From the NCBI GenBank assembly GCA_902826775.1, contig CADEHE010000001.1, positions 633,332-697,331 of the forward strand: DNA of 64,000 bases. The letters run 5' to 3'. A model generated the notes under the pieces. It made no database searches. It was not told the origin of the DNA and worked only from the letters and a program-made list of their open reading frames with translations. Below are positions 25,169 to 58,349 of the stretch, piece by piece (the stretch's first letter is position 1; each line of letters begins with the position of its first letter). The position numbers and the translations under genes were made by a program. The stretch comes from an uncultured Pseudomonadota bacterium. GTDB taxonomy: Bacteria; Pseudomonadota; Gammaproteobacteria; Burkholderiales; JALYOK01.

Positions 25169-26311
25169 CTAGAAATCCACCTTGAGCGAGGCCCTCGCGC
25201 TAAGGGGCGTGCCGACCGTGATAAAGCCGCCGCTGTTGCTACCGACGTGGTAGGTCCGGTCGAGTACGTTGTCGACGTTGAGTTGTCCAGTAAGGCGATT
25301 CGGCCCAATCTTCCAAATGTAGCTGGTCATCAGATTCAGAACACCGTAGCCGGGCAGCGTGTACGAGTTGTCTGGGTCGCCTTGACGCTCGCTCACGCCC
25401 ACCACGCCTGCACCAAACTTGAGCCCGCGCAGATTTCCCGATTGAATTTGGTACGTGGTCCAAAGCGTGATTTGATGTTTCGGCGCGAGAAACAGCCGGT
25501 TACCGGTGCGCCCCGCGTTTGTTCCAATTACGTTGCCGTCGCTGTCGAATTCTTGCTGCGAGTCTTTCGTGATCTCTGCAAACGGCATATACGCATAGCC
25601 GCCGATAACGCTCCAACCGGGAGCAAGTTGTCCCGCGATGTCGAATTCGAATCCGCGACTCTCCGCTTCACCGATGGCAACCGATATGTTTGGGTCGACG
25701 GGATCGGCCACCGCGAGATTCTGCTTGGTCAAATCGAAATACGACAAGGTTGCGGATAGGCGCCCGTCCAGTAGATCGGTTTTCGCACCGAGTTCCCATT
25801 GCTGTGCGGTTTGTGAGGGCAAACGCCTATCTGGCGGATTGAATAAGCTATTGGAAGCGCCAAAATTCTCTGCGTAGGACGTATATAGCGATAGCCATTG
25901 TTTGGGGCGCCACAGCAAACCTATACGCGGCGTAACTTTGTCATCTTTGTCGGTAACTTGCCCGGCGCTTCGTCCAACTGCGTTGTCGTAGCGCACTCCA
26001 GCAAGAAAGTGCACCTGGTTCGGGAACTCAATTTGATCTTGCGCGTAGACTCCGTACCATCTCTGTTTGAAGTCCAAGTCGAAATTGTTCGCTGGGTTGA
26101 AGACCTGCGGAGTCGGGCTATAGACGGGTTGGAAAAAATTGAACGCGGGCGCGCTGTCGCAGCAGTTGAGTCCTTTTAGCTGATCCGAAATCTCAAAGTA
26201 GTCGACGCCGAATAGCAACGTATGCTTCAAGGTACCAGTGCTGATCTTTCCGGTCAAATCCAGCGCCGTGGACAATCGCGTCGAATCTTGATTGCCGCCG
26301 TGCGAAAGCAA
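25169..26311 (-). pseudogene. TonB-dependent siderophore receptor, barrel only (signal and plug deleted)
   Basis: 380 residues equal the C-terminal half to two-thirds of a siderophore receptor: barrel strands such as TLLFGVDYFE, FLAGVRYDNAVG, TPRIGLLWRPKQWLSLYTSY, then ending ARASLKVDF. No plug, TonB box or signal peptide is present. The frame opens at a TTG without ribosome-binding site and runs back only to a stop at 26348. Exactly there, on the other strand, a cytochrome P460 fragment begins. The gene is therefore cut by a rearrangement. A barrel without a plug or signal cannot function as a receptor. Confidence 0.88.
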
Positions 26312-26316
26312 ACCGC

Positions 26317-26622
26317 GGCGATCATTTCCCCAATGGAACGCTGTTTGTTATGGAGATTTACAAAGGCGACGCAGCCAACGACGGGAAACTCGAAAAAGGC
26401 GAACTCGCCAAGATTTTTGTCATGGGCAAGAACCCCGGCTGGGGTGCGGCCGTGTCACCCGCAGAGCTTAGGACCGGCGATTGGATTTATTCCGCGTACA
26501 AAGCGGACGGCCAGACCCCCTCCGGCGACGACATCGCACAATGCCGTGCATGCCATTTGCCGTTGGCCAAGCAGGATTTCGTGCACCGCTATGATGAGTA
26601 CTTCGATCGACGCGGCAAGTAA
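26317..26622 (+). pseudogene. Cytochrome P460 C-terminal fragment
   Basis: The plus frame reads HFPNGTLFVMEIYKGD from 26323, then GKNPGWGAAV and finally QCRACHLPLAKQDFVHRYDEYF with a C-x2-C-H haem site near the end. These are the C-terminal features of cytochrome P460, a periplasmic c-type haem protein that oxidises hydroxylamine and NO. The N-terminal half and signal peptide are absent. The similarity stops at about 26317, next to the break in the receptor gene. ATG 26350 could start a 90-residue cytoplasmic stub, but that would not reach cytochrome c maturation. Confidence 0.78.
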
Positions 26623-56379: not shown

Positions 56380-56439
56380 GCTGAGCCGGGCTGCCCGGCG
56401 TTAGCGGTGTAGCGAGCGGTTCAAGCGTTTGGCGTTTGC

Positions 56440-56855
56440 TACGGCGCGGCGATGCACCGGCGCGAGGCTTTAGAGAGTACCTACCGGGATGGCGCCACCC
56501 ATGTGGTGATGTCGCCGCTGGAGTTCATGCAGCGCTTGGCGGCACTGGTGCCACGTCCGCGGCTGCACCTGATCCGTTCCACGGCGTGCTTGCGCCGAAC
56601 GCCAAGCTGCGCGCGGCGATCGTGCCACCTCCAGCGCAGATTGCAACTGGACACGCAACCGAGCACGCGCAGCATTCGCCCGCGCGCATGACTTGGGCGC
56701 GCTTACTCAAGCGCGTTTTCGATATCGACATCGAACACTGCCCGAATTATGGCGGCGCGTTGAAGATTATCGCCGCTATTGAAGCGCCGCCCGTGATCGT
56801 CAGAATCCTCGCCCATCTGGGCTTACCGACCCGGGCGCGAACGGCGGCTTTCGGG
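56440..56855 (+). pseudogene. IS91-family transposase remnant
   Basis: Two plus-strand frames together give the end of an IS91-type transposase: YRDGATHVVMSPLEFMQRLA, ALVPRPRLHLIR (up to 56577), then FHGVLAPNAKLRA and TWARLLKRVFDIDIEHCPNYGG, ALKIIAAIE. One base is missing at about 56576. The zinc-type HCPNCGG has become HCPNYGG. The catalytic tyrosine region is absent. It is a dead fragment between msrA and the peptide gene. Confidence 0.85.
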
Positions 56856-57116
56856 AACGCACAAACCACAGGTGCGTTTGAAAGTCACACAGCGCGATTT
56901 TTCAGGTCGGCTTTGCAGCGCAAGCTCGACCGTCTCTGCAGTACTACTTTCGATCTAGATCGATTCGCCCAACCAAAATACGGTATAGGCAAACGCGATT
57001 GCGCGATATCGACCGTCCTCAGCTTCTCCTAGGGTGTTAAGCACAAAGCCCTTCGTCTTTTTACGGCAGTTGGCTTTGGAAAACAATCTTTCTTACCTCT
57101 TTAGGAGTATATCCAT

Positions 57117-57359
57117 ATGAACACCAAACAACTTTCTCGAACACTGGGCACCATCGGCGAGCTCACCGACGCAGAGCTCCATGGCGTATCGGGTGGAAAG
57201 TCCCGTTCCCAAGAAGCGTTCGACATACTCATCGACCACGGCGACGAGCTCACGTTCAAAGAACAGGTAGCGTGTGCCTACGTTTGGATCTTCGGCTGCG
57301 TCCCCGGACCAGACGGCCAAGGCGACGGCCGACCGCACGGCAGCATACCGCCGCTCTGA
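57117..57359 (+). CDS. Double-glycine-leader peptide, candidate microcin/bacteriocin precursor
   Basis: 80 residues. An excellent TTAGGAG lies 9 bp before the ATG. Residues 1-27 (MNTKQLSRTLGTIGELTDAE then LHGVSGG) form a leader of the double-glycine class: ELTDAEL-x(3)-SGG is the motif recognised by C39-peptidase ABC exporters. The 53-residue core has C53 and C61, a hydrophobic ACAYVWIFGC segment and a Gly/Pro-rich end (PGPDGQGDGRPHGSIPPL). No exporter or modifying enzyme gene is adjacent. It follows an IS91 remnant, so it may have been moved here. Antibacterial function is inferred from the leader only. Confidence 0.6.
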   Translation: MNTKQLSRTLGTIGELTDAELHGVSGGKSRSQEAFDILIDHGDELTFKEQVACAYVWIFGCVPGPDGQGDGRPHGSIPPL

Positions 57360-57783
57360 GCTAGTAACGACACCTCCAGCGGGCGGACGCTCCGTCCGCT
57401 GGCCGTCGACGCGTCCGCGCGGGTTGAAAGCGGTGACGCGCACGTCGTGCGTCGTGCGGCGCCTCAAGCAGTCGAACAGGAGCAAGCATAGGGTGCGCTG
57501 CGCATGCGGGTCATTCGTCCGGTTCGCCATAAGCCCCTTCGGTTCCTGACAACGTGGTGGCTGCCCCGTCGGGTGGATACAGACCGATACGGACGTAGCG
57601 GTGAAACGTCGAATACGGCCAAAGCGGGAAACGTGTTGTGCAATGCATGGCGACAGTTCCGGACCGCTGCCGACTACCCATACAGGGAACTCTTCTCGGT
57701 GGCGATCGTGCCGATGCAGCCAGAAGTTAGAAAGCTGACTTTCTTGAACGCCAGCCTGGCGAGCGGGGAATTGTCCAAACCCC
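57360..57783. other. Intergenic region after the peptide gene, no gene supported
   Basis: A GCGGACG/CGTCCGC hairpin (57383-57399) lies shortly after the stop and could end the transcript. Remaining frames (for example plus 57504-57818) show no family, signal or ribosome-binding site, so no immunity gene can be named. Confidence 0.4.
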
Positions 57784-58127
57784 CTAGTCGCGTACCTTAT
57801 GGCGCAATGCAGAGATGATCAGGCCTGCGCCTAAGAAAATGCTGACGATCGGCATCAAACCGCCAGGAATCGCGAGCTCGCCGACTCGGACGTTGGACAA
57901 CTCTCATATGCCAAACAGGGCAAAGAGGGCACCGACGACAATCCAAAACCCCTCTACCGGCAGGCCGAAGTCTTGCGTGCCGCCTGCGCGCCAAGGGTAA
58001 TGATTCCAACGCCCAACAGTCCTACGCCCCAGCCGACATCTGCAATTAAAGCGGCGCCTTTCCAAATGAAGAAGAGACCCCATCCAATCGCATCCAGTTT
58101 CTTGATGAGAAACCGCCCATGCTCCAT
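57784..58127 (-). pseudogene. Small four-helix membrane protein gene broken by a frameshift and a nonsense codon
   Basis: Reading the minus strand from ATG 58127 gives LIKKLDAIGWGLFFIWKG, GWGVGLLGVGIITLGAQAARK. One base appears deleted at about 57974. The next frame continues FGLPVEGFWIVVGALFALFGI, where a TGA replaces the expected TGG (57904-57906), and then ELSNVRVGELAIPGG, LMPIVSIFLGAGLIISALRH up to TAG 57784. The three pieces together give a coherent small membrane protein of a conserved but unnamed kind. Each break is a single-base change, so decay is recent. Confidence 0.75.
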
Positions 58128-58349
58128 CACAGCGCGTTCGCTGCTTATCATGGCGCACGCCATTTGTGGACCTTCATTGACTCATAACTCGCGGACCACT
58201 GCGCGACCACGGCGCTAATCGCTAATCAGCCGCTCGTTGCCGATCCCGAAGAAGCTCGTTTTGCTCCCGCCTGAGCGGGCAAGTGCTTGCTAGAGCGTGT
58301 TGTTCGTTTCGGCATGCCTTGGTTATTCCTGTTTTCGGCTGCCGCGGCT

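Follow-up and report, generated by a model that had tools for sequence, protein, structure and literature searches.

A solitary double-glycine-leader precursor gene located apart from the only C39-peptidase ABC exporter of its genome

Microcin V is exported by CvaB, a C39-peptidase ABC exporter. The immunity proteins of such systems are hard to recognise from sequence (PMC9746304). Peptides with double-glycine (GG) leaders support biofilm in one Gram-negative bacterium (PMC4997328) and autolysis in another (PMC11798529), so antibacterial action is not to be assumed for a peptide of this type. The EbfG1-4 proteins have a mass of about 6-7 kDa after cutting (PMC4997328), and precursor genes scattered singly are known for the prochlorosins (PMC10783134). 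The gene described here, hereafter the orphan, is of a kind already known and its core sequence is new. It is found in a window of 64,000 nucleotides (the whole stretch of DNA that was analysed) with the following features in and around it:

57117 to 57359, plus strand: precursor peptide gene, ATG at 57117, TGA ending at 57359, 80 amino acids; gene-like codon score, no family match
57103 to 57107, plus strand: Shine-Dalgarno sequence AGGAG, read directly, nine bases 5' of the ATG
57117 to 57197, plus strand: predicted leader, residues 1-27, MNTKQLSRTLGTIGELTDAELHGVSGG, fits LSxxELxxIxGG; cleavage site placed by the motif
57198 to 57356, plus strand: predicted core, residues 28-80, 53 amino acids, pI 4.7, average mass 5755.4 Da (reduced), C53-x7-C61
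57376 to 57402, plus strand: 12-pair hairpin, 16 bases past the stop codon, no T tract, single copy in the window
56574 to 56822, plus strand: decayed C-terminal fragment of an ISCR/IS91-type transposase (E 1.5e-15), a neighbour outside the peptide system
26015 to 26378, 80001 to 80087 and 85235 to 85587 of contig C1: three more remnants of this ISCR/IS91-type element, likewise decayed, 79-83% identical

Judged from its sequence, the orphan is a real, solitary double-glycine-leader precursor gene. The earlier note had described an open reading frame with a strong ribosome-binding site at 57117-57359, and both are confirmed by the 80-residue frame and the AGGAG nine bases ahead of its ATG. A strict scan, combining the leader motif, a Shine-Dalgarno sequence, an ATG and a short open reading frame, returned only this site in the window, and no site in any of 60 first-order Markov resamplings. 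The codon score of the frame exceeds that of 99.6% of off-frame segments and falls at the 21st percentile among real gene segments; measured against the window, neither its G+C content nor its codon use is unusual. No sigma-70 type promoter was found upstream of the gene and a search of Rfam returned nothing. The hairpin downstream is not exceptional (z -1.59) and is a weak candidate for a possible transcript end.

The leader motif is LTDAELHGVSGG and residues 1-27 end in GELTDAELHGVSGG, with predicted cleavage after G27. The latter agrees with LSxxELxxIxGG at all of the hydrophobic positions, at Glu -8 and at the Gly-Gly pair, which is consistent with the double-glycine leader of C39-peptidase exporter substrates that had been proposed for it. 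A motif of this type, 15-30 residues from the start, places the orphan among the GG precursors that are C39 substrates. With a position matrix built from 47 distinct leaders encoded beside homologous exporters in other organisms (gathered by a looser motif, including a few that are probably chance reading frames, and not including the orphan), the orphan leader scored 20.9 bits and ranked first of the 90,682 six-frame 14-mers in the window, the second scoring 12.8, although this ranking partly restates the motif fit because the training leaders were themselves chosen by motif. Compared with the training leaders themselves, 20.9 bits ranks close to the bottom of their range.

The predicted core is acidic and hydrophilic (pI 4.7, charge about -4, gravy -0.32). 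The spacing of Cys53 and Cys61 is eight (C-x7-C), with AYVWIFG between them, as in the earlier description of two cysteines around a hydrophobic patch. A single-sequence structure model of the core has two helices at low confidence, with a mean pLDDT of 52.9, which is too poor for a fold search. No credible homologue of the peptide was found in GTDB contigs, plasmids, IMG/VR, phages or the PDB, nor in the 399 order, 369 class and 398 phylum genomes (about 1,170 searched whole, the three draws overlapping in part). Two weak matches in the order draw (E 0.004 and 0.007) were taken as chance, one being core-only in a 37-residue frame and the other lying inside a 1094-residue frame. The peptide matched none of the small open reading frames of 80 exporter loci and no family in Pfam or NCBIfam. 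The absence of relatives is partly a matter of sampling, since the orphan's family is represented by one genome alone in the collection searched; with no homologue found, the core is without evidence of selection. Tentatively, the core may be the first member of a novel family of acidic secreted peptides carrying a CAYVWIFGC-type helix, and one of several dispersed and unrelated cores that share one exporter within a betaproteobacterium-like lineage.

Around the orphan, no gene for an exporter, an immunity protein or a modifying enzyme could be recognised, either in the inspected reading frames between 48 and 64 kb or in the 4.8 kb beyond the window, and a genome-wide C39 search found none on its contig; the lack of a nearby exporter or immunity gene had been noted before. 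The reported IS91 remnant does adjoin the orphan. Only residues 47-129 of the open reading frame at 56436-57032 align with ISCR clade Ia transposases (E 1.5e-15), at positions 395-488 of 509. The proposal that a transposon brought the orphan is not supported: the ISCR sequence is a decayed stub, a motif scan found no GG peptide beside the three other fragments on C1, and the G+C content and codon use of the gene are ordinary. Transposon carriage was thus rejected for want of a repeated association with the element, and the adjacency is best taken as coincidence; an ancient carriage is possible. On the minus strand at 57904-58163, a small hydrophobic protein is split over two overlapping frames and is probably a frameshifted pseudogene.

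Elsewhere in the genome the C39 peptidase family has three matches, exactly one of which is an ABC exporter (contig C5, 66.3 kb). The search for such a transporter that the earlier note had advised is thus positive. The protein of 711 residues consists of an N-terminal C39 domain followed by ABC membrane and ATPase domains, with an HlyD gene just upstream. Cys (EAAECGLAC), His (FNHFVV) and Asp (VVHDPG) were read by eye at the places expected for the catalytic triad of the peptidase. Among NCBIfam models the protein matches the NHLP-family bacteriocin exporter best, at 500.8 of 853.3 bits; as this is below the curated cut-off, the protein is named only a C39 ABC exporter. The presence of such an exporter in the genome is consistent with assignment of the orphan to the GG-precursor class. 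The C39 domains on C9 and C10 were rejected as ABC exporters: one belongs to a FapD/FilB-like periplasmic peptidase, the other to a TPR-repeat protein of the PA2778 family. Of 80 loci with homologous exporters in other genomes, 38 have GG peptides beside the exporter.

Sister peptides with the same type of leader, also sought at the suggestion of the earlier note, are present both beside the C5 exporter and away from it. A genome motif search yielded 12 matches, where the pattern in reverse yielded 4, and inspection of the 12 left the orphan, two peptides on C5 and short open reading frames on C3, C9 and C12. The two C5 peptides are directly upstream of HlyD (L004, 7371 and 7609); the leader of one, LTAVELNLVGGG, agrees with that of the orphan at 7 of 12 positions, mostly consensus positions. 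Those on C3, C9 and C12, which are away from the exporter, have leader scores of 22.7-29.5 bits:

L113 7519 (C3, 212.5 kb), minus strand: GG peptide, no exporter nearby
L115 8172 (C12, 130 kb), minus strand: GG peptide, no exporter nearby
L114 8883 to 10129 (C9, about 159-160 kb), minus strand: GG peptide, MSHEICGSEKLKEKC...AVAGG, radical SAM gene directly after

Two peptides similar to the one on C9 adjoin homologous C39 exporters in a Nitrosomonas (L029) and in a gammaproteobacterial bin (L025). A looser scan produced 183 matches where the reversed-pattern control produced 72, and as 100 of the 183 were listed the count of GG peptides in the genome is a lower bound. Comparison of the upstream regions of the six GG genes revealed no shared motif beyond 8- and 9-mers attributable to chance. 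On C1, at about 222-225 kb (L108 6103-8935), there is a seventh precursor, this one of NHLP type (TIGR03793, 83.4 of 50.9 bits; leader end LSDSDLEAVAGG), in what is likely a RiPP cluster.

Several further observations were made on these genes. Of the C3 and C12 peptides, one has a hydrophobic, alanine-rich core and the other a cationic core. The sequence VALNPQPLPP is common to the GG peptides at L004 7371-7598 and L019 5354, from two distant lineages and each beside a C39 exporter. Behind the NHLP precursor on C1 come a gene resembling an AAA_33 ATPase and a JmjC_2 gene.

Taken together, the orphan probably encodes a solitary small secreted peptide, cut and exported by the sole C39 ABC exporter of the genome on C5, and is one of a number of scattered precursors sharing that exporter. 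It would be translated from the strong ribosome-binding site as an 80-residue precursor, the step that the sequence itself shows. The C39 domain of the C5 exporter would recognise the helical leader with its terminal GG and cut after Gly27, and the 53-residue core would leave the cell through the exporter, the HlyD adaptor and a putative TolC-type channel. The other scattered GG-leader precursors would share the same route. The core is probably unmodified except for a possible Cys53-Cys61 disulfide; its extracellular role may be in competition, biofilm or signalling. The double-glycine motif is common to all C39 substrates and is therefore no proof that the C5 exporter is used. Of the two origins offered by the earlier note, however, service by a distant exporter is favoured over the transposon by the presence of the exporter and the sister peptides, although we infer the link between them and the orphan. 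The same note had regarded its reading as refuted if the genome had no C39-type exporter and the frame no conservation in relatives; the frame indeed has no detectable relative in any collection, but the exporter is present.

Bacteriocin and RiPP genome mining usually looks beside an exporter or an enzyme. As the precursors here are found away from the sole exporter, most of the set would escape mining by neighbourhood. Should the precursors indeed share one exporter, deletion of one gene would silence several peptides, a simple test of their role.

The exported core might be a bacteriocin of the class II microcin type, lethal to competitors, its immunity gene being either unneeded or located elsewhere. 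The GG leader, the size and the type of exporter all match the class II microcins (PMC9746304), yet this function is unlikely for several reasons. No linked immunity gene was recognised among the neighbouring reading frames, where the sole small membrane protein, that at 57904-58163 on the minus strand, is split over two frames, and in place of a linked C39 exporter and adaptor the exporter is on another contig. The core has no relative among known families and, at a charge of -4 and a gravy of -0.32, is acidic and hydrophilic. Many bacteriocins are cationic, unlike this core. GG peptides of other Gram-negative bacteria serve biofilm or autolysis instead (PMC4997328, PMC11798529).

That the core is modified in trans, for example by a radical SAM enzyme, and is thus a RiPP and not a plain peptide, is quite improbable. 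The radical SAM gene directly following the C9 GG peptide, a SPASM protein encoded on C5 and the two cysteines available in the core are compatible with this proposal. So is a match to the ATP-grasp target RiPP family (TIGR04497; E 0.049, 13.7 of 32 bits), but the match is below the curated cut-off and covers the generic leader. No modification gene was recognised beside the orphan and, with no match in Pfam or NCBIfam, it does not belong with the NHLP/Nif11 leader RiPPs, whose leaders are long and resemble nitrile hydratase or Nif11. A lanthipeptide is unlikely because no LanC-like domain (PF05147), expected for class I and II, was found in the genome.

The orphan might instead have decayed or only recently arisen, as a remnant of a mobile element or a by-product beside one, with a leader but without a function. 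Its position in a degraded stretch, between the decayed ISCR fragment (56574-56822) and the frameshifted small membrane gene (57904-58163, minus strand), and its lack of homologues would suit such an origin, but the intact frame, excellent leader, strong ribosome-binding site and gene-like codon use make it a poor prospect. It is hardly credible that the plus-strand frame is due to chance and that the antisense frame at 57093-57530 is the true gene, for although the latter is open over 145 codons with gene-like GC by codon position and AAGGGG preceding its ATG, it has no family match, has a codon score per codon of 0.096 against 0.260 for the orphan frame, and cannot account for the leader and ribosome-binding site on the plus strand.

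A secreted peptide served by the distant C5 exporter is the reading compared here with known systems. Like class II microcins such as microcin V, the orphan is a small GG-leader precursor in a Gram-negative genome with a C39 ABC exporter and an HlyD-type adaptor; it differs in having no linked exporter or immunity gene and an acidic core without relatives or known activity. EbfG1-4 of Synechococcus elongatus are likewise small GG-leader proteins with cores lacking homologues, exported by a C39 transporter, but the ebfG genes form a cluster of four whereas the orphan is alone (PMC4997328). The GG-leader peptides of the Neisseria gonorrhoeae nap island are another Gram-negative example not used against competitor species; unlike the orphan, they are island-borne and cationic, with a separate C39 peptidase and a FapF-like channel (PMC11798529). 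The ProcA/SyncA prochlorosins resemble the orphan in that precursor genes can be scattered singly, away from shared machinery. They are, however, lanthipeptides with Nif11-type leaders and a shared LanM (PMC10783134), whereas the genome of the orphan has no LanC-like domain and its leader is short and of the bacteriocin type.
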